From assembly GCF_016612505.1 (NCBI RefSeq), contig NZ_JAENRR010000020.1, forward strand, positions 1-64,000: a stretch of DNA of 64,000 nt, read 5' to 3'. Made by a program: the position numbers and the translations under genes. This stretch comes from Carboxylicivirga marina (GTDB taxonomy: Bacteria > Bacteroidota > Bacteroidia > Bacteroidales > Marinilabiliaceae). Shown here one piece after another: positions 1 through 30,988 of this stretch (position 1 is its first letter; every line of letters starts with the position of its first letter). The notes beneath the pieces were generated by a model. The model had not been told where the DNA came from. It did not search any database and saw only the letters and a program-made list of their open reading frames with translations.

Positions 1-478
1 ATATCTTCAGAATATTATTTTACCGCAGAGTTAAAGAAGGGCACAGAGTTTTTATTGGAGCTGCCAATCAATCTTCCACCAGGGGAAGTGCCTGAAAGGC
101 GATGGGGGCTTTTCAACCATGCTGCAAATAATGCGCTGAAGGCGCTAAATATGATAGCATAGGGTAAAGCGTAGCCCTATGACTAAGTCGTGCAAATAAA
201 ACCGGTGCAACATGAAGCTAATGGTTGCAGGATGTCATTTGCAGCGGAATGTGCGATAAATACCCCGCACAGCCTACGGCATCAGTCCAGGGGGAGCATT
301 TGACTTACATGGTGTATGATGTATCCACGAATGGCGCTAATTGACGAGAATTATTATACTTGGAATTCTATTACCGAGCTGAGATTCAATTCTCCATTTT
401 TCATAAGGGGGAGATAGTTATGTAGGCGATGTGACCTGACTATTCCGTTTCAAGCGTAACATTAAAAAATTAGGCCAC
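1..478. repeat. Copy A of the structured dispersed repeat (left edge)
   Basis: No gene is seen here. The stretch resembles the sequence repeated several times in 1850-3470. It has the same order of blocks: a CCGCAGAGTTAAA block at 23, a GGGGAAGTGCCTGAAAGGC hairpin block near 83-101, a GCGCTGAAGGCGC hairpin at 133-145, a CATAGGG...CCCTATG inverted repeat near 158-181, and a CCGGTGCAA...TTGCAGCGG inverted pair between about 203 and 247. The copy probably continues beyond the left edge. From about 470 to 540 I see nothing recognisable. Confidence 0.75.
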
Positions 479-546
479 TCCAAAATTCATTTGCTATAAC
501 TTCCTGTCAAAAACACACCCATGAATACTTTGGTCAAAGAATAGCC

Positions 547-578
547 AATGTTTATCAAGTATAATTGAATGTTTATCA
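547..578. promoter_or_regulatory. Two 11-bp direct repeats upstream of the 731 gene
   Basis: AATGTTTATCA occurs at 547-557 and again at 568-578, exactly 21 bp apart, so both copies lie on the same face of the helix. A related inverted half (TAAACATT) lies near 612-619. The position, about 150-185 bp before the start codon of the next gene, fits operator sites. Function is inferred from spacing and place only. Confidence 0.4.
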
Positions 579-643
579 CCTGTATGATGAATGTCATTAT
601 TTATAATAAGTAAACATTACTAAATTTATTTACACAGTTAATA

Positions 644-702
644 AGAATCCCGTCGGCTTTCCTTTCGTACCTGGAAGTCTGAGGGGAAGCTGACAGGATT
701 CT
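644..702 (+). promoter_or_regulatory. Long imperfect hairpin in the leader of the 731 gene
   Basis: The left arm 644-662 and right arm 683-702 pair over about 19 bp, with one C-A mismatch and G-U wobbles, around a 20-nt loop. No T-run follows, so it is not a classical terminator. It ends 28 nt before the ATG at 731 and would lie in the mRNA leader. It could be a cis-regulatory RNA, a processing site or a protein-binding site. Confidence 0.55.
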
Positions 703-730
703 GTAGTATTCATTACAAAATTAGAATAAA

Positions 731-1465
731 ATGTCAAATGAGAAGGAGTATGAGGTAATATTACCTCTTGCATCGGAAATTAGAAACGATGAGATTTTAA
801 AACCAAACATGCCTATTAAACAAGCAGTTTATGAAGCGGAAGATTTATCCAGTTGGTGCTCAAAAGATCAGGAAGCATTGATTGAAGTCGGTGTCCCTGA
901 AACACACTTCACAAACTTAAACCTAGCAGCCGGTGCCTTGCGCCATGCTGAATCAATTTGGAATGATGATGATGACTCAAGAAAAGAAGCTGAACTGAAG
1001 TGGCGTGAGACAGAGCCCCTTGCTTATGATGTATTGGAAGAGTTAGTGCATATATGCTTCTTTGTGTACGATGAAGATCAATCATTGCTTAATAAAGTAA
1101 GAGAAATAGCTTCAGGAAATAGTGATGCCGATTTAATTCAGGGTTTAAATGATTTGGCAGTAATTGGTAAAAATCACCCTCATCCTTTATTAAAAGTGGA
1201 GTTGTTGAATAAAGCTAGCCAGTACTCATCAGAATTAGGTGATATAAGGGCTACAGCCAACAGTGAGAAGTTTGAGGCAACTGAAAGCTTGATGAATAGA
1301 AATAAGATTTACACCTTACTTAAAAGGTATACGGATGATATCAGGCGTAGTGGTAAGTTTGTTTTTTGGCGTGATGAAGATCGCCTGATTGGCTATTCAA
1401 GCAAATACCATCGCCTGAAGAACAAGCGGCACAGAGCCAATGCTGATGCAGCAAGCGGTATTTAA
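731..1465 (+). CDS. Unknown 244-aa protein of a repeat-flanked module
   Basis: I do not recognise this family. The reading frame starts at an ATG 28 nt after a strong leader hairpin and ends 24 nt before a clear terminator, so it looks like a real single-gene transcription unit. The protein has no signal peptide or membrane segment. The first two thirds are acidic and look helical, with a run of four Asp near residue 78. The last 30 residues are basic (KYHRLKNKRHR), which would suit nucleic acid binding. Both sides are non-coding repeat DNA, and an array of 21-bp spaced TGAGAAG boxes follows directly downstream. A link between the protein and the array is a guess from position only. Confidence 0.75.
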   Translation: MSNEKEYEVILPLASEIRNDEILKPNMPIKQAVYEAEDLSSWCSKDQEALIEVGVPETHFTNLNLAAGALRHAESIWNDDDDSRKEAELKWRETEPLAYDVLEELVHICFFVYDEDQSLLNKVREIASGNSDADLIQGLNDLAVIGKNHPHPLLKVELLNKASQYSSELGDIRATANSEKFEATESLMNRNKIYTLLKRYTDDIRRSGKFVFWRDEDRLIGYSSKYHRLKNKRHRANADAASGI

Positions 1466-1489
1466 ATGAACTTATAAATTTCTTTCATA

Positions 1490-1517
1490 AAACCCATCTT
1501 TCGAGGTGGGTTTTTCG
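1490..1517 (+). terminator. Rho-independent terminator of the 731 gene
   Basis: A 10-bp stem (AAACCCATCT with AGGTGGGTTT, one wobble) closes a TTCG tetraloop and is followed by a T-run. It lies 24 nt after the stop codon. Confidence 0.9.
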
Positions 1518-1537
1518 TTAAAAAGCGCTGAAACCCT

Positions 1538-1754
1538 TGAGAGGACAGTGCATTTTATGAGAGGGCGGCAGAATTATTGAGAAGAACAGGTGAAACCTTG
1601 AGAAGACCGAGTGATAAATTGAGAAGGGTGACTAAAGTTATGAGATAAACAGACAAAAACATTGAGAAGGATGCCCTAAAACCTGAGAAGAATGGGTCAA
1701 ATGTTGAGAAGTATGCTATCAAACAGTGAGAGGACGCTGTCTGTGAGTGAGAAG
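1538..1754. repeat. Phased array of eleven TGAGAAG-type boxes
   Basis: The heptamer TGAGAAG, or close variants (TGAGAGG, TGAGATA), starts at 1538, 1558, 1578, 1599, 1620, 1641, 1663, 1684, 1705, 1727 and 1748. The steps are 20, 20, 21, 21, 21, 22, 21, 21, 22 and 21 bp, close to two helical turns each. The sequence between boxes is not conserved, except that units 3-9 carry an A-rich triplet about 10 bp after the box start. The 20- and 22-bp steps break any reading frame, so it does not encode a peptide repeat. It looks like a row of protein-binding sites on one DNA face. Confidence 0.8.
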
Positions 1755-1849
1755 TGTTGTATTTTCAGGGCAGGCTTAATTGAACATATCAAAAGGGAGT
1801 AAGGATTTATAGCATATAATAATTTAAATCGCAGATTAATATAGATTAA

Positions 1850-3470
1850 TTCCTTCAGAATATTATTTTACCGCAGAGTTAAAACAGAACGCAAAGTTGA
1901 TCCGTGGCTTGGTTCTAGGTGAAGCTGTAAATAGTGCGCTGAAGGCGCTATATATAATAGCATAGGGCAAGCGGCGCGGCGCCCTATGTTCAGTAGATGC
2001 GAATCAAACCGGTGCAACAAGAAATTAATAGGTGCAGGATGTCATTTGCACCGGAATGTGTGATAAATACCCCCACAGCCTACGGCAGCTCCCCCTGGGG
2101 AGCATTGATTTACATGATGTAGTTTTATCCACGAATGACACGAATTATCACTAATCCTGATAATTTTTAAGGAAGCTGTAAATCAATCTTCCACTGGGGG
2201 AAGTGGCTGAAAGCCGATGGGGGAGCATAATGTTGTCATACTCTCCATCCACAAATGGCACTAATTACCACGAATAAATTTTTAGTGTAATTTACCGCAG
2301 AGTTAAAGGAGAGCGCAAAGGTAATCCGTGGTTTGGTTCTAAGTGAAGCTGTAAATAATGCGCTGAAAGTGCTATTTATATAAGCATAGGGCAAAGAGAA
2401 GCGACGCCCTATGACTATATTGTGCAAATAAAAGCGGTGCAACAAAAAGCTAATAGTTGCAGGTTGTATTTTGTACCGGAATGTGTGGTAAACACCCATC
2501 CGCCTTCGGCACCTCCCCAAATGGGGAGGCTGATGGACAGCTTGTAAAAGTTTATCCGCGAATTGCGCTAATTAGTGCGAATTAACAGGTGAATTGGATT
2601 TAAACGCAGAGTAAAAGAAGAGCACAGAGTTTTTATTGGAGCTGCCAATCAATCTTCCCCTGGGGGAAGTCCAGTAAGGGATGGGGGTGTTCATCTTCAA
2701 GCTGTAAATAGTGCGCTGAAGGCGCTATATATAATAGCATAGGGCAAGCGGCGCGGCGCCCTATGTTCAGTAGATGCGAATCAAACCGGTGCAACAAGAA
2801 ATTAATAGGTGCAGGATGTCATTTGCACCGGAATGTGTGATAATTACCCCCACAGCCTACGGCAGCTCCCCAGGGGGAGCATTGATTTACATGATGTAGT
2901 TTTATCCACGAATGACACGAATTATCACTAATCCTGATAATTTTTAAGGAAGCTGTAAATCAATCTTCCACTGGGGGAAGTGCCTGAAAGGCGATGGGGG
3001 AGCATAATGTTGTCATACTCTCCATCCACAAATGACACGAATTAATTTTTAGTGTAATTTACCGCAGAGTTAAAGGAGTACGCAAAGTTAATCCGTGGCC
3101 AGACTCTTCGGTAAGCTATAAATAATTCGCTGAAAGCGCTATATATAATAGCATAGGGCAAAGCGCAGCGGCGCCCTATGACCAAAAAATGTAAATAAAT
3201 CGGTGCAATACGAAGCTAATAGTTGTAGGTTGTATTTTGCACCGGAACGTGCGATATATACCCCCAGAGCCTGCGGCAGCTCCCCAAGTAGAGTATTTGA
3301 TTTATTTGCAATAAGATTTAAGCACTGATTATGTAAATTACTCAAATTAATTCCTTTGGAATAGCATTTTACCGTAGAGTAAAAAAAGAACGCAAAGATA
3401 ACCCTCAGGCTAACTCTACAGGAAGCTGTAAATAGTGCGCTGAAAGCGCCATATATAATAACATGACCAT
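1850..3470. repeat. Cluster of structured repeat copies B to F
   Basis: This gene-free stretch is built from copies of one unit. The core (GCGCTGAARGYGC hairpin, CATAGGGC...GCCCTATG stem, CCGGTGCAA...TTGCACCGG stem) occurs at 1936-2060, 2360-2485, 2713-2837 and 3127-3251, and in part at 3437-3460. About 345 bp from 1922 are nearly identical to 345 bp from 2699. Each core is flanked by blocks shared with many intergenic sites: a CCGCAGAGTTAAA block, a clustered CCCC/GGGG hairpin with GGAGCATTGATTTACA, and ATCCACGAATGACACGAATT. Open frames inside it run through the hairpins and are not credible genes. Confidence 0.85.
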
Positions 3471-3477
3471 GAAGACA

Positions 3478-3510
3478 TAAAAAAAGGCCTTGCACTATGT
3501 ACAAGACCTT
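3478..3510 (-). terminator. Terminator at the end of the polysaccharide cluster
   Basis: On the minus strand a 9-bp stem (AAGGTCTTG with CAAGGCCTT) is followed by seven T. It lies 24 nt after the stop of the last glycosyltransferase and separates the cluster from the repeat region. Confidence 0.8.
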
Positions 3511-3533
3511 CTCTAATCAACATTCTTGATGTT

Positions 3534-4646
3534 TTAACCAAACAAAGGCTCATAATCAACTTTTGGGGTATATGATTTTAAATAATCTTTTAGATAGGAT
3601 TGTGCACCTTGGGCCATTTGCTGATACCCTTCATTATCCAAGTCAACCAACTTCGTTAGTTGATTATGCCATTCAGCCTCATCCAGGTCTAAGTTAAAAC
3701 CAGCTTGTTTGGCTTCCAGATTACTCCAGGGGGTAAAATGCGATATAATAACAGGCTTACCTGCTGTTAAGGCTTCAAAAATAACATGCCCAAAGTTTTC
3801 ACCTAGAGTAGGTAAGATGAAGAAGTCATAGGGGAGTAGCGTCTCGACAACTTCTTTTGGTGCTACCTGTCCAACATATTTGATACGGTCTTTGTTTTTT
3901 TCAATCAATGGCAAACACTTTTCCCAATAGGCATGGTCTTTTATGGGACCAATAACATCCAGAGAAACATTTAATTGTGGATGTTTATCCATTACCTCCA
4001 AAAGGAATAGTAAATTCTTTTTCTCAGTGATTAAAGAGAGAAATACCAGTTTCAACTGACCTTGTTGCTTGGTATGCGTAAGGTTAGCAAAATTTGGCTG
4101 TAAAGGTGGTGTATCCTGCGCCAGGGTAACATCAGCACCTTTAAAGTGCATTTGTATATCCTTAACTTCCTGCTCATCGGTCGCATGCCAGTGTAGCCCC
4201 TTTAATAAGCCACTAATCTTAATAGCACTCAGGTAAACTTTCTTTTTAAGTGCTTTCACTTTTAAAGCGCCTGCATGTAGCATACCCCTGGGCGCTATAA
4301 TCACTTTGCTTTTAATTCCTTTTAATGCCATTATGGGCTTAAAAAAAAACTTGTTACCATAAATACCATTAATATAGATCTTATCAGGTTTTATCTCATC
4401 TAAAACAGCCTTTATTGCATTTGCATCATCAGCACTCGAATAGTAGACCTGAATGTTATCATTGGCGTTAATCCATTGATTGACTTTTACATCCAATTGA
4501 GTGCCGTCTAAATCATAACACGAGGTGTAAATATAGAATTGGTAATTATCGAGGTTATTGACCAGATTACAAAGTGAACTCACAATGCCGCCAGCTTTTT
4601 CGGCAGGGGAGAAGTAGGGATATATAATCAGTATTTTATGGTTCAT
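3534..4646 (-). CDS. Glycosyltransferase, GT4-like
   Basis: The 370-aa protein starts like a GT-B fold sugar transferase (KILIIYPYFSPAEKAGG) and has the family EX7E motif as ENFGHVIFE near residue 285, which binds the sugar nucleotide. The length fits the family. It is the last gene of the minus-strand polysaccharide cluster, 2 nt after the previous gene, with its terminator just downstream. It should add one sugar to the growing chain on the cytoplasmic face of the membrane. Donor and acceptor cannot be told from sequence. Confidence 0.85.
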   Translation of the reverse strand: MNHKILIIYPYFSPAEKAGGIVSSLCNLVNNLDNYQFYIYTSCYDLDGTQLDVKVNQWINANDNIQVYYSSADDANAIKAVLDEIKPDKIYINGIYGNKFFFKPIMALKGIKSKVIIAPRGMLHAGALKVKALKKKVYLSAIKISGLLKGLHWHATDEQEVKDIQMHFKGADVTLAQDTPPLQPNFANLTHTKQQGQLKLVFLSLITEKKNLLFLLEVMDKHPQLNVSLDVIGPIKDHAYWEKCLPLIEKNKDRIKYVGQVAPKEVVETLLPYDFFILPTLGENFGHVIFEALTAGKPVIISHFTPWSNLEAKQAGFNLDLDEAEWHNQLTKLVDLDNEGYQQMAQGAQSYLKDYLKSYTPKVDYEPLFG

Positions 4647-25762: not shown

Positions 25763-26740
25763 TTATTATTTACAGCTTGTATATTTTTTTGTCCACGAAT
25801 TGCACTAATTAACACTAATTGTTTTTGAACCACCCCGCCTGCGGCACCCCTCCTTGAAAAGGCGGGGAATTGATTGACAGCTTCTGAAAATGTCGAACTG
25901 TTAATAGTTTATAAGTTGAGGAGTTGAATGTTGATTTGTGATTTGCAGCTTATTTTTTTGTCCACTAATGACGCGAATTTGCGCAAATTTTTTATAATTG
26001 TTTTGCTGAGATTAGGAGGGGTGCTCTTCTCTCATCGCTCTTTTTTCTCTTCTTTTTTAAAATTGTCGCCTACACTTTCGGAGTCGTGCGGTAGCACTGT
26101 TGTGCTTTATTGTTGAATCGCGTGCTATTAAAATCCTTGCTCTATCCATGCCCTGGAAACTTCCTCCACCTTAAGGGGGAGGTGCCAAAGGCGGAGGGGG
26201 TGTTTGTTTTAAAAATGGTTAATCGTTGAATTGTTATTTACAGCTTGGCTAATGCTTGTCCACTAATGACGCGAATTTGCGCGAATTTTTTATAATTGTT
26301 TTGCTGAGATTAGGAGGGGTGCTCTTCTCTCATCGCTCTTCTCTCAGTTCTTTTTTTAATATCGTCGCCCACACGATCGGAGTCGTGCGGTAGCACTGTT
26401 GTGCTTTATTGTTGAATCGCTTGCTATTAAAACCCTTATACTATCCATACCCTGGAAGCTTCCTCCACCTTAAGGGGGAGGTGCCATAGGCAGAGGGGGT
26501 GTTTGTTTTAAAATGGTTAATCGTTGAATTGTTCTTTACAGCTTGGTTAATGCTTGTCCGCTAATGACGCGAATTTGCGCAAATTTTTTATAATTGTTTT
26601 GCTGAGATTAGGAGGGGTGCTCTTCTCTCATCGCTCTTCTCTCAGTTCTTTTTTTAAGATCGTCGCCCACACGATCGGAGTCGTGCGGTAGCAGTGGTGC
26701 ACAATTGTTTCTTCTCTGCTTAACCCGTTAATTGTATATA
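25763..26740. repeat. Repeat family G, copies 1-3
   Basis: Three head-to-tail copies of a roughly 290-bp unit lie at about 25931-26218, 26219-26517 and 26518-26700 (the third is truncated). Each starts with a TCC-CTAATGACGCGAATT block, then AGGAGGGGTGCTCTTCTCTC, a hairpin CACGATCGGAGTCGTG, and a CCTCCACCTTAAGGGGGAGG hairpin. The unit is non-coding. Further copies are at 27445-27635 and 28540-29112. Confidence 0.85.
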
Positions 26741-27016
26741 TCAAGGATTGTTCTGATATTTTACAAAACCAAATACTTCAATAGTGTTATTATTAATCTT
26801 GAATACAATAGTATACCCTTTAAATATTAAGTCTCTTATGTTCTCATCATTAAAATATATTGAAGGTCTGAATTGATAAGGGTTCTGAGGGATGCGTTTT
26901 AAAAGGCTTATGAGTTCAGATTTGAATTTACGAGCATGAGCAGGACTGTTGTTGGCAATATAATCAACCTGATCTTCAAGTTTGGCAATAAAAGCATCTT
27001 TAAAGACGACCTTCAT
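26741..27016 (-). CDS. RelE/ParE-type toxin
   Basis: The 91-aa basic protein has the fold signature of this toxin family: an N-terminal strand and long helix (FIAKLEDQVDYIANNSPAHARKF), NPYQFRPS, and a C-terminal KGYTIVFKI..IEVFGFVKYQNNP strand pair. It overlaps the upstream small acidic gene by 17 nt, the normal antitoxin-toxin order. Family toxins cleave mRNA on the ribosome or inhibit gyrase; which applies is not visible. The pair sits alone between repeat copies inside the polysaccharide cluster. Confidence 0.82.
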   Translation of the reverse strand: MKVVFKDAFIAKLEDQVDYIANNSPAHARKFKSELISLLKRIPQNPYQFRPSIYFNDENIRDLIFKGYTIVFKINNNTIEVFGFVKYQNNP

Positions 27017-27239
27017 GTTTTGTTATTTTATTCTCTAATCTCTCTTCTAACTCATCTATCGTATAATATTCAGCTGTACCTTCATTAATTTCATCAAGTT
27101 GAACTTGCAATTCTTCTTGAGTTTTAAGAAAAACGTCATCTTCACTAATTATCTCAATTTCATCTTTACTGAACTTACTAAGTAACCAGATGAAATGCTT
27201 ATATACCTTATCGTGTATTTTAAGTTTGATGGTATGCAT
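27000..27239 (-). CDS. Cognate antitoxin of the RelE/ParE-type toxin
   Basis: The 79-aa acidic protein starts with a strand-like segment (MHTIKLKIHDKVYKHFIWLLS), continues into a Glu-rich helix, and ends in a Lys/Glu tail that overlaps the toxin start. Size, acidity and gene order fit an antitoxin that binds the toxin with its C-terminus and represses its own promoter. The exact family is not recognised. Confidence 0.7.
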   Translation of the reverse strand: MHTIKLKIHDKVYKHFIWLLSKFSKDEIEIISEDDVFLKTQEELQVQLDEINEGTAEYYTIDELEERLENKITKHEGRL

Positions 27240-27812
27240 TGTCTTTTGTTATCTCCTAAAATTAATACAATTGAAACTGTCGGTCAAGTAATAAAAGTGT
27301 GACACAAAACTCTATGCTAATCACTGTTTTTCTATCATGAATAATACCGGATACTATTCAAAATACACCTTTAGTTCGCGTCTCTCCTAAAAGCCCTATG
27401 TATATGTGTCGGCATTATACCAGTGTATTTTAATATTTAATGGTATAAGATAACTCTTCTCACCGCTCTTTTCTCAGTTCTTTTTTAAAGAACGTCGCCC
27501 ACACGATCTGAGTCGTGCGATAGCACTATTGTGCTTTATTGTTGAATCACATGCTATTAAAATCCTTAATCTATCCATGCCCTGGAAACTTCCTCCACCT
27601 TAAGGGGGAGGTGCCGCAGGCGGAGGGGGTGTTTACTCACCGCTCATCTCTCTCTTCTTCTTTCTTTGCGTCTTTGCGTTAACCTTAGCGTCTTTGCGAG
27701 AAACCCACTCATCTCTCACCGCTCTTCTCTCATCTCTTTATTTTCTTTTGTCTAAAAGCGTAGCGGTCTATTGTCTATAAGCGAAGCGTTCTAAATTCTG
27801 CAGCTTCGCTGC
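27240..27812. repeat. Repeat-rich gap with partial copy of family G
   Basis: No gene. 27240-27440 shows nothing recognisable. 27445-27635 is a partial family G copy with the CACACGATCTGAGTCGTG hairpin and the CCTCCACCTTAAGGGGGAGG hairpin. 27655-27720 carries TTTGCGTCTTTGCG-type tandem words, a class of intergenic repeat found in many environmental bacteria. Confidence 0.7.
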
Positions 27813-28400
27813 TTACCACCTCACTTCACTCTTCACAAACTCATACGCCTTCTCAATGCCTTCCTCAATACTTAACTTATTGGTATCAACTGTTACTTCC
27901 GCATCCTCCGGTCGGTCAAAAGGTGCATCTAAACCCGTAAAGTTCTTAATCTCGCCCGCCAGGGCTTTTTTATAGAGGCCTTTGGGGTCGCGCTGGGCGC
28001 AGGTCTCAAAGGAGGCATCTACAAATATTTCGATAAAGTCATCGCCTATAATCTCACGCGCCATTTGGCGTACGGCGTTGGTGGGAGAGATAAAAGCATT
28101 GATGGTGATGATGCCACAGTTGAGAAAGAGCTTGTTGATCTCCGCTATGCGGCGAATGTTTTCGTTGCGGTCTTCAGCGGTGAAGCCTAAGTTGTTATTA
28201 ATACCGGTGCGGATGTTGTCGCCATCGAGCACCTGGGTGAGGTAACCACGCTCGGCAAGGCGTCGCTCTAAGCCATGTGCCAGGGTGCTTTTACCCGAGC
28301 CGGAGAGGCCTGTTATCCAGATGACTTTGGCTTTTTGCTTGAGATACTGCTCTTTGTCGGAGCGATTAAGGTATATGTTAGTGGGGTGTATGTTGTTCAT
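27813..28400 (-). CDS. cysC: Adenylyl-sulfate kinase
   Basis: The 195-aa protein is a complete stand-alone APS kinase. It has the P-loop GLSGSGKS at residues 31-38, LDGDNIRTGINNNLGF near residue 58, and FIEIFVDASFETCAQRDPKGLY near residue 122. It phosphorylates APS to PAPS. Sulfate assimilation genes are not nearby. Instead it heads the minus-strand polysaccharide cluster, which contains a PAPS-dependent sulfotransferase, so supply of PAPS for glycan sulfation is the likely role. It is isolated by repeats on both sides. Confidence 0.92.
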   Translation of the reverse strand: MNNIHPTNIYLNRSDKEQYLKQKAKVIWITGLSGSGKSTLAHGLERRLAERGYLTQVLDGDNIRTGINNNLGFTAEDRNENIRRIAEINKLFLNCGIITINAFISPTNAVRQMAREIIGDDFIEIFVDASFETCAQRDPKGLYKKALAGEIKNFTGLDAPFDRPEDAEVTVDTNKLSIEEGIEKAYEFVKSEVRW

Positions 28401-29112
28401 TTTGGATTTATGATGGACGAATGTTGATTTATGATGTTTGATTGGCAGCTTGGTAAAATGTCGAACTGTTAATAGTTTATTAGTTGAGGAGTTGAATAGT
28501 TTTTTAGTTGAGGAGTTGAATAGTTTATTGTTTGACAGTTGAATCGTTGAATTGTTATTTACAGCATTGACTAATGCTTGTCCGCTAATGACGCGAATTT
28601 GCGCGAATTTTTTATAATTGTTTTGCTGAGATTAGGAGGGGTGCTCTTCTCTCAGTTCTTTTTTTAATATCGTCGCCCACGCGATCGGAGTCGTGCGGTA
28701 ACAATGATGTACTTAATTGATGAATCGCTTGCTATTAAAACCCTTATACTATCCATGCCCTGGAAGCTTCCTCCACCTTAAGGGGGAGATGCCGTAGGCA
28801 GAGGGGGTGTTTGTTTTAAAATGGTTAATTGTTGAATTGTGATTTACAGCTTGACTAATGCTTGTCCGCTAATGACGCGAATTTGCGCGAATTTTTTATA
28901 ATTGTTTTGCTGAGATTAGGAGGGGTGCTCTTCTCTCATCGCTCTTCTCTCAGTTCTTTTTTTAATATCGTCGCCCACGCGATCGGAGTCGTGCGGTAGC
29001 AATGATGTACTTAATTGATGAATCGCTTGCTATTAAAGCCCTTATACTATCCATGCTATGGGAACTTCCTCCACCTTAAGGGGGAGGTGCCGCAGGCGGA
29101 GGGGGTGTTTAC
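28401..29112. repeat. Repeat family G, copies 5 and 6, with TTGAGGAGTTGAAT repeats
   Basis: 28480-28530 has two direct copies of AGTTGAGGAGTTGAATAGTT. Two family G units follow head to tail at about 28540-28825 and 28826-29112, close to identical to those near 26.3 kb. No gene is seen. Confidence 0.85.
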
Positions 29113-29756
29113 TCACCTCTTTATTCTACGTACTATTATTCCCTCTTCACTTTAATCTCATCACTTTTATTCTTTAACTCTATAAGCGGAGCAGTCTATT
29201 GTCTAAAAGCAGCTTGCTGCGATCTATTCTCTTATTAACACAGCTTCGCCTCCTTCCCGAAACATCGGGATTTCCTCCTAAAGAGTCGTCAACACTTCGT
29301 TGGCTTGCACGGCTTCGCCTCCTCAGTCACAGGGTGTGAGTTTATTGGATTCGACAATAATGGTTTAAGCGGTTGATAGTCATCAACATTAATCCTTAAT
29401 GTATACTTAAGTGAGGTTTTGGCGACTTCTATTGCATGTATACACCGAAAAAGGGGATAGGTTACCCTACCAGCCCATATTTTTTGTTGCTAAAATAACG
29501 TGCTTGCCTGTATAATTATTGTTGTTAATAGGCATACGAAGCCAGTCATTCGTAACTACCATCTTGTGTATGATTGTCTTATATAGTGTGATGCCAACCA
29601 TTTTATAGCCCAGAAAAGGGCATAAATAAGAAATGTCGGCCATAATGGTCGTTGTAATCTTTTTTAATAACGAATATCTGTCCAAAACCTTCATCTAAAG
29701 TTACACGCGAAATTAATAAAAAACTCGATAAGACAAGGTGTCTGTATGTATGCTTA
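29113..29756. other. Gene-poor gap
   Basis: The stretch lies between family G repeats and the inverted-repeat element at 29757. A 75-codon minus-strand frame (29467-29694) is open, but I see no family signal and do not call it. The rest, including a GCTTCGCCTCC-rich part at 29240-29320, shows no coding or RNA feature I can support. Confidence 0.5.
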
Positions 29757-30062
29757 ATTTCAATATTGTCCTAATTATTTCATGATATTGGGCTATTCGC
29801 CCAAACCCAACTTACTGCTGAAACGATTAAGAATACTCAATTCTCAATCGTTCCGATAATGTCAAAAACTAAGGAAAAAACATCAAGGCTTCACCTGCTT
29901 CTCTCATAAAACTACAGTTATTTGACTGAAATCGTTTAAACTCGCTTCGCTCAAACAGAAAACGATTTTTAGCGTCAAACAACCTTGTTTCATGGTTCAC
30001 CAGCTGAGGCCCTTTCCCTACAGGACGTGTAGCGAATTAAACAAAAACATTTAGGACGCCAT
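29757..30062. repeat. Miniature inverted-repeat element, copy 1
   Basis: A non-coding element of about 300 bp begins near GTCCTAATTATTT and ends near AAAACATTTAGGAC, so its ends form an inverted repeat. Inside, GGGCTATTCGCCC forms a small hairpin, followed by AAACGATTAAGAATACTC and AACGATTTTTAGCGTCAAAC. The same element, about 95% identical by eye, lies at 39283-39588, and a diverged copy at 35480-35756. It codes for nothing. Confidence 0.8.
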
Positions 30063-30149
30063 TAGCTTAATTTAAAATATAGGGCAGGGGCGTGGTTATT
30101 TATTCAACCATAGATTGATAAAGTGAATTTGATTAATATTGTTATCAGC

Positions 30150-30988
30150 TAATGCCGCTTACTATTTCTTCTCTCACTTCTTTTTCTTGCGTCTTTGTGA
30201 GAAACATTTTTCTGTCCACAGATTACGCAGATTAAGAAGGAACAGTATTCGCAGTTTGCTTACAATTTTATGGATGTATTGCTGTGCAATTGTTTTTCTC
30301 ATGGCTCAAATCTCACCTCTCATTTCTTGCGTGATTCCCCCTCAGGCCTTTGGCCAGCTCCCCAGGTGGAGCATTGATTTACAGCTTCAAACTCTTCTCT
30401 CACTTCTTTTTCTTGCGTCTTTACGAGAAATGTTTTTTCTGTCCACAGATGACTCAGATTAAGAAGGATTAGTATTCGCAGCTTGCATACAATTTTATGG
30501 ATGTATTGCTGTGCAATTGTTCTTTCTCATGGCTCAAATCTTACCTCTCATTTCTTGCGTGATTCCCCCTCAGGCCTTTGGCCAGCTCCCCAGGTGGAGC
30601 ATTGATTTACAGCTTCAAACTCTTCTCTCACTTCTTTTTTCTTGCGTCTTTGTGAGAAACATTTTTCTGTCCACAGATTACGCAGATTAAGAAGGAACAG
30701 TATTCGCAGTTTGCTTACAATTTTATGGATGAATTGCTGTGCAATTGTTCTTTCTCATGGCTCAAATCTCACCTCTCATTTCTTGCGTCTTTGCGAGAAA
30801 CATTTTTCTGTCACAGATGACTCAGATTAAGAAGGATTAGTATTCGCAGTTTGCATACAATTTTATGGATGTATTGCTGTGCAATTGTTCTTTCTCATGG
30901 CTCAAATCTCACCTCTCATTTCTTGCGTGATTCCCCCTCAGGCCTTAGGCCAGCTCCCCAGGTGGAGCATTGATTTACAGCTTCAAAC
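30150..30988. repeat. Tandem repeat family H, four units of 170-240 bp
   Basis: Units begin with CTTCTCTCACTTCTTTTTC at about 30156, 30394 and 30626, and a shortened fourth unit follows from about 30790. Each holds TTGCGTCTTT.GAGAAA, TCTGTCCACAGAT, CAATTTTATGGATG and GCTCCCCAGGTGGAGCATTG. Units 1-3 are nearly identical, so the expansion is recent. The open frames across it are by-products. Confidence 0.85.

Follow-up and report, generated by a model that had tools for sequence, protein, structure and literature searches.

The ParR proteins of plasmid parC centromeres and the proteins of chromosomal parS clusters each have a private, phased cluster of direct repeats, on which they form a filament or ring. 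Iterons, which accompany Rep proteins, are direct repeats of ~20–22 bp adjoining the gene of the protein presumed to bind them. CRISPR arrays consist of near-identical repeats of ~23–50 bp separated by unique spacers. In type III toxin–antitoxin systems, tandem repeats and a terminator accompany the toxin gene; the repeats lie upstream of that gene and the toxin is a beta-rich RNase. In Bacteroidota, the BrickBuilt element of P. gingivalis is an intergenic array of 23-nt direct repeats inside a MITE, with 19 dispersed copies, one of them near a terminator, according to the passages of its description used here (PMC4596501).

The window (the whole 64,000-nucleotide stretch of Carboxylicivirga marina DNA analysed here) contains an intergenic array of direct repeats directly after a gene. 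The features are as follows, all on the forward (+) strand:

731..1465, + strand: gene of a 244-aa protein; the predicted fold is helical throughout and comprises two internal repeats plus a basic helix at the C-terminus (open reading frame and structure model)
1490..1515, + strand: terminator-like hairpin with a T run, AACCCA...TGGGTT, between gene and array (sequence and fold)
1525..1536, + strand: lead-in GCGCTGAAACCC, preceding box 1 (sequence)
1538..1754, + strand: phased array of eleven boxes, consensus TGAGARG, period 20–22 bp
1538..1544, + strand: box 1, TGAGAGG
1558..1564, + strand: box 2, TGAGAGG
1578..1584, + strand: box 3, TGAGAAG
1599..1605, + strand: box 4, TGAGAAG
1620..1626, + strand: box 5, TGAGAAG
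1641..1647, + strand: box 6, TGAGATA, off consensus
1663..1669, + strand: box 7, TGAGAAG
1684..1690, + strand: box 8, TGAGAAG
1705..1711, + strand: box 9, TGAGAAG
1727..1733, + strand: box 10, TGAGAGG
1748..1754, + strand: box 11, TGAGAAG

The eleven TGAGA boxes extend over 217 bp, and the steps from box to box are 20, 20, 21, 21, 21, 22, 21, 21, 22 and 21 bp. All match TGAGARG exactly except the one at 1641 (10 of 11). The 20–22-bp phasing reported in an earlier note on this DNA is therefore real. The note had also proposed a comparison with shuffled sequence: positions 1501–1800 score 148 as an array, and none of 1000 shuffles exceeded 72, so that periodicity of the observed strength was never reached; TGAGARG occurs 10 times in the same interval and at most three times in 5000 dinucleotide shuffles. 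A conserved part of 7–9 bp and a period of 20–22 bp do not fit a CRISPR array, which the note had rightly excluded. Its observation of an A-rich patch about half a period after the box is supported, since the patch, ~10 bp past the box, recurs in the window array and across 109 clear arrays of homologues (below); for the same reason, its description of the spacers as unrelated does not wholly hold. In scans of the 64-kb window, neither another such array (400-bp tiles, score >90) nor another gene of the protein family was found, and Rfam gave no match above the gathering score for positions 1–4200. An intergenic repeat (ACCGCAGAGTTAAA..., GCGCTGAAGGCGCTATATATAATAGCATAGGGC...) is present in several diverged copies on both sides of the gene and array (1–160 and 1850–3500). 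Elsewhere in the window, positions 25958–30928 hold tandem repeats of 298, 228 and 140 bp with TCTTCTCTCA motifs.

The structure model of the protein is all helical (mean pLDDT 96.5), with predicted 56-residue helices at residues 57–112 and 156–211 and a basic C-terminal helix at 225–242. Its two halves look homologous in a comparison by hhalign (P 7e-4, probability 27%, 84 columns). The basic C-terminus ascribed to this gene product is present (its final 25 residues carry a net charge of +5), but the full-length protein has an acidic pI of 5.1. The family is likewise acidic on average (mean pI 6.2), and the C-terminal tail has a net charge of at least +2 in 51 of 58 family proteins. Pfam had nothing that matched the window protein, even at E 10, and none of the 11 family proteins scanned gave a match above cut-off. 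A PDB fold search with the window protein and with a distant relative, the PQLLE member L263, gave no match at E 0.1 or better; the top folds (E 0.11 and 0.16) are coiled-coil look-alikes. PADLOC had no match for four proteins, and matches to PHROGs were weak. Among 72,556 plasmid and 50,697 phage records, tblastn found nothing that matches the window protein, and viral contigs contain no relative of it in a search sensitive to close relatives only.

Relatives of the window gene occur in 28 of 71 genomes of the GTDB family, often several per genome, in 14 of 247 genomes at the order level and in 2 of 395 at the phylum level (own genome counted each time). Named genomes yielded 115 relatives, of which 80 loci were retained; these come from Carboxylicivirga, Labilibacter, Draconibacterium, Sunxiuqinia, Aquimarina, Marivirga and Reichenbachiella, among others, and from metagenome bins with labels such as KSB1, Aminicenantes and Deltaproteobacteria. 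After removal of hits that shared their final 60 residues or matched the profile over <150 positions, 145 distinct genes remained of 175 ORF hits, 142 with at least 200 bp and 140 with at least 300 bp of downstream sequence. When lags of 12–40 were compared, the best self-match fell at 20, 21 or 22 in 115 of 140 downstream regions and 26 of 137 upstream regions. A 20–22-bp array lies within 400 bp downstream of 109 of the 142 distinct homologues, with a score above all 852 shuffles. By the same score, arrays were found upstream of four of 134 homologues, in the 3′ regions of none of 151 other genes from the same loci (94 regions too close to a family gene were excluded) and in 5 of 747 background tiles. 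Thus, the link that the note had drawn between the array and the gene before it extends to most of the family. Ten of the 33 homologues missing a downstream array have one at most 1.5 kb away on either side, of which an estimated three or four could be due to chance at the background rate, given the many tiles tried; for the other 23 of 142, no array was detected up to that distance. Over the 400 bp examined, each array has between 5 and 18 units. A search of relatives for TGAGARG, as the note had suggested, succeeds only in part: arrays do follow the homologues, but because each homologue has boxes of its own, this word finds arrays in the window's own genome only among the 71 family genomes, and its two hits elsewhere (both in G016) are low-complexity runs.

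Within the arrays, 661 of 932 steps are 21 bp, 206 are 20 bp and 65 are 22 bp. A decayed coding repeat of 7-residue units would have the period of 21, and two upstream arrays of distant relatives (L269 and L270) are open in one frame by inspection. However, the 20- and 22-bp steps (271 of 932) break any frame, as the note had argued from the window, and conservation is concentrated on the boxes in a second copy from the same genome (C134, below), so that this origin can practically be dismissed. When boxes were searched for with no spacing rule, neighbours were 20–22 bp apart 618 times and 41–43 bp apart 103 times; other distances were few and half-turn distances rare. Some arrays step by 20 bp (L061 throughout, L046 mostly); these would drift round the helix, which counts against a reading in which all boxes share one helical face. 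In some arrays, units alternate with a higher-order period of 42 bp (L261, L245) or 63 bp (L282).

The neighbours of the family genes have no partner in common. Among 128 of the 141 nearest proteins (those >700 aa were excluded), the commonest of 119 families accounts for five proteins, and neighbour orientation is near even. The 25 commonest of these families include no replication or partition family and no ParA-, ParM- or TubZ-type motor gene, so that within these 25 the picture differs from ParR/parC and parS; the lack of a fold match is a further difference. These results also bear on iterons of a replication origin or integrated plasmid. The window array resembles iterons as direct repeats of about two helical turns beside a gene, but only ~7–9 bp of the unit are conserved, the window protein has no Rep domain by Pfam and several family members occur per chromosome. 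That the window protein has no relative in the plasmid or phage records speaks against both iterons and plasmid partition, and iterons appear highly improbable.

The box itself varies by locus. The TGAGARG consensus stated in the note holds in the window, where the box is TGAGAAG, but it is not fixed in the family: elsewhere CGACCGGAAG, CCGCAGGAAG, CCGCGGGA, GTGAGATA, TGCCCCAAT and others are found, and paralogues within one genome carry different boxes. Nevertheless, the 109 arrays can be aligned in a common register of a variable box, GG (0.68 at each position) and an A-rich patch ~10 bp on, a distance of one helical turn. The register contains 3.50 bits, against at most 2.18 in column-permuted arrays with an equal number of starts (30 each for real and permuted arrays). 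Strand adds only ~0.3 bits, because a random-strand control reaches up to 3.23; taken singly, 80 of the 109 arrays match it more closely when read along the strand of the gene, and the remaining 29 when read along the opposite strand. The register, strand and RNA tests were restricted to the 109 arrays above threshold and thus describe clear arrays. Identity between related arrays (51 pairs that align, out of 57 with at least 70% protein identity) is highest at the GG (0.77, 0.82), has a second peak ~10 bp away at columns 13–17 (0.65–0.74) and is lower at columns 10–12 (0.56–0.57) and 18–20 (0.54–0.60).

Box similarity climbs with protein identity, and the strand is kept. For instance, at 75–90% protein identity mean box similarity is 11.6 on the same strand and 0.7 on the opposite strand, with all 30 of 30 pairs favouring the same strand. 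The same-strand preference is seen in 78 of 91 pairs at 60–75% identity and 309 of 424 at 50–60%, is gone below ~42% and has its mean reversed below 30%. Over all pairs, the correlation between box and protein is modest (r 0.21). Proteins L081 and L100 are 79% identical and have unrelated boxes, and thus the box word can switch quickly. As for the residues involved, a first test found box-linked differences enriched at residues 231, 18, 232 and others, a hint of the C-terminal tail that was not confirmed: in Mantel-type partial correlations the values for the box were near zero, and that of the tail was reached in 353 of 500 permutations. The sole standout was the tail against the A-rich patch (5 of 500 permutations).

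The repeats might instead act as RNA. In a pair resembling type III toxin–antitoxin systems, the array would be transcribed and its repeat RNA bound by the protein. As in those systems, tandem repeats adjoin the gene in the window, separated from it by a terminator-like hairpin, and the distribution of the family is sporadic and multi-copy. Such a terminator-like fold is not general, being present at 28 of 109 loci including the window. Against such a pair, excess structure in array RNA is weak (mean z −0.86 on the gene strand, with 26% of arrays below −2). Spacing that tolerates only one base in either direction suits the DNA helix better than flexible RNA, by our reasoning. In addition, the repeats of the window's clade lie downstream, upstream repeats being found in distant relatives only, and its protein is helical in place of a beta-rich RNase, with no PADLOC match among the four proteins searched. 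A toxin–antitoxin pair is therefore judged very unlikely.

A named relative of the family is the NCBIfam entry NF052641 ‘PQLLE family protein’, which matches the window protein's family in hhalign with E 1.4e-5 and probability 80% over 199 columns. Of 58 clade members, 46 match this model at E≤1 (best 6e-10). The window protein itself has no match at E 10, and the clade member L040 reaches 20.9 bits, below the curated cut-off of 80 bits. The PQLLE member from the window's own genome, L263, is also modelled with two 56-residue helices (pLDDT 92). The two-repeat helical protein can thus be placed as a remote homologue of NF052641 by common ancestry. PQLLE proteins are array-associated, as is the window family, but the position of the array differs: in PQLLE and other distant relatives it is upstream in 21 of 34 cases and downstream in none of 33 (scores above the maximum of 670 shuffles), whereas in the window's clade it is downstream. 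Against the common register, 11 upstream arrays of PQLLE relatives have the same and 12 the opposite orientation. The database entry provides a name and no function. By eye, L245, L262, L269 and L270 have fibronectin type III-like tails fused to the two-repeat helical part; Pfam gave no match above cut-off for eight such distant relatives.

Arrays also occur apart from any family gene. The genome of the window contains a second array with the same box (G000:C134:20587-20822), between what we take to be a B3/4-like gene and an MBL-fold gene. It is 76% identical to the window array over 156 bp (E 4e-26), and in the alignment 72 of 76 box positions are identical against 88 of 154 spacer positions, which indicates that the boxes are under constraint and the spacers much less so. 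Outside the arrays, the only sequence seen to be common to both loci is CTGAAACCC, directly before the first box, at the position of the lead-in; the corresponding sequence at L040 is GCGCTGCAACCC. With the array as DNA query against 14 genomes of the genus, two pieces of the C134 copy were recovered (E 4e-26 and 0.002), and the remaining listed matches were of E 0.04 or worse and 15–44 bp long. Of 18 such weak matches retrieved from the own genome, 13 were inspected: eight are an unrelated dispersed repeat and five look coding. The dispersed repeat, with AGAATTATTGAGAAGA, is found at L064, L065, L067, L068 and L071–L074.

Relatives of the L263 array occur on C185 (two arrays), C173 and C55, where no family gene is reported. 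In the pairs G012/G013 and G019/G009, too, other loci hold arrays that match a gene-linked one; one of these (L284) lies at a contig end, and the short hit L286 is no array. Three such stand-alone arrays have a counterpart at the same place in a second species: L293/L294, where the genes on both sides are kept; L282/L285, in which the most conserved array columns are identical at 74 of 85 positions and the others at 107 of 143; and L295/L296, where synteny is clear on one side only. The G019/G009 arrays are 96–99% similar, too close for boxes to be separated from spacers. A ~190-bp module with inverted ends, integron attC-like by eye, occurs at L014 (801–994, 4438–4630, 5137–5329 and 8165–8356); it is repeated in C185 and is also present beside the C173 and C55 orphan arrays.

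An ordinary transcription regulator with unusually large operators, which regulates itself and a small regulon from arrays near promoters, would account for some of these positions. PQLLE and the distant relatives carry the array upstream of their gene, the C134 array is upstream of the next gene, and the orphan array L293/L294 has been kept in a divergent promoter region. In the window's clade, however, the array follows the gene, beyond the terminator-like hairpin where there is one, and no regulator domain emerged from the Pfam scan of 11 family proteins. The orphan arrays C173 and L282/L285 lie between convergent genes, which argues against simple promoter control. A regulator of this kind is considered unlikely.

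Another alternative is a MITE-like dispersed minisatellite in which the protein has no role and the gene is a passenger. The window and BrickBuilt share an intergenic direct-repeat array in a Bacteroidota genome (PMC4596501). The C185, C173 and C55 arrays sit in dispersed repeats of ~0.7–0.9 kb that are 78–89% identical. Likewise, G019 has three copies of gene plus array (L271–L273), 97–99% identical over ~2 kb, at unrelated sites. A MITE would have terminal inverted repeats and target duplications; these three copies and one G009 copy have one common end (AACTACTTTATATCCGCCATTAC), the other end being lost in tandem repeats. The unrelated sites and common end of L271–L273 suggest recent movement. 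For a passenger gene, however, the tie of the array to one gene family across phyla, the way in which close homologues keep box, protein and strand together, the conservation of the box relative to the spacer and the different boxes of paralogues in one genome are all out of place. The repeat of BrickBuilt lies inside a MITE, and the passages of the source used here describe neither a cognate protein gene nor a locus-specific box (PMC4596501). The minisatellite explanation is accordingly considered improbable.

The explanation that appears somewhat more probable than its alternatives taken together, judged from sequence and models, is that the gene at 731–1465 and the array at 1538–1754 form one stand-alone module in which the protein coats its own array as an anchoring filament. 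The protein would be a rod of two homologous helical hairpins that recognises its own array, with one protein per 21-bp unit and each of its two repeats touching one of two consecutive helical turns on one DNA face. The first contact would be the box and the second the A-rich patch one turn later. The two patches, the two repeats, the two-turn period, the same-strand inheritance of the box and the looser spacers fit such an arrangement of one protein per unit, and the basic tail of most family proteins counts in its favour. Against it count the acidity of the protein on average, the absence of a PDB fold match at E 0.1, the failure to assign box specificity to particular residues, the modest box–protein correlation with a strand preference that is lost between distant homologues, the arrays that step by 20 bp and the 23 homologues for which no array was detected. 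Adjacent proteins would touch, so that a row of sites could assemble a nucleoprotein filament, much as is the case for ParR/parC and parS. The same protein would also occupy the stand-alone arrays elsewhere in the chromosome, which could thus serve for assembly or anchoring, comparable to clusters of centromere sites or iterons. Compared with ParR/parC and parS, a chromosome here has several private specificities, and sites are scattered as orphan arrays as well. The module would spread via duplication and horizontal transfer, and either the host or the module could be what maintains the site. Anchoring or assembly is the purpose that we favour, and it is less certain than the mechanism of one protein per unit.

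Among the papers listed in searches of the open-licence literature, there was no description of such a gene–array system, of a function for PQLLE or of 21-bp phased arrays in Bacteroidetes. More tentatively, the family may be part of a large undescribed superfamily of helical proteins with two repeats. Each paralogue would develop a DNA word of its own inside a constant 21-bp grammar and bring along the phased array to match, giving several mutually private filaments per chromosome and extra sites in trans. If so, the superfamily would be a natural, reprogrammable DNA-recognition scaffold for chromosome anchoring or for a selfish element. If the protein binds the array, public genomes already hold >100 natural protein–array pairs whose words differ while the frame is constant, and a recognition code could therefore be tested by swaps; programmable, phased DNA scaffolds of a new kind could result. 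The arrays would also reveal a layer of chromosome organisation, or of selfish DNA, that is widespread in Bacteroidota and other phyla and is invisible to protein annotation alone because the box changes between loci.
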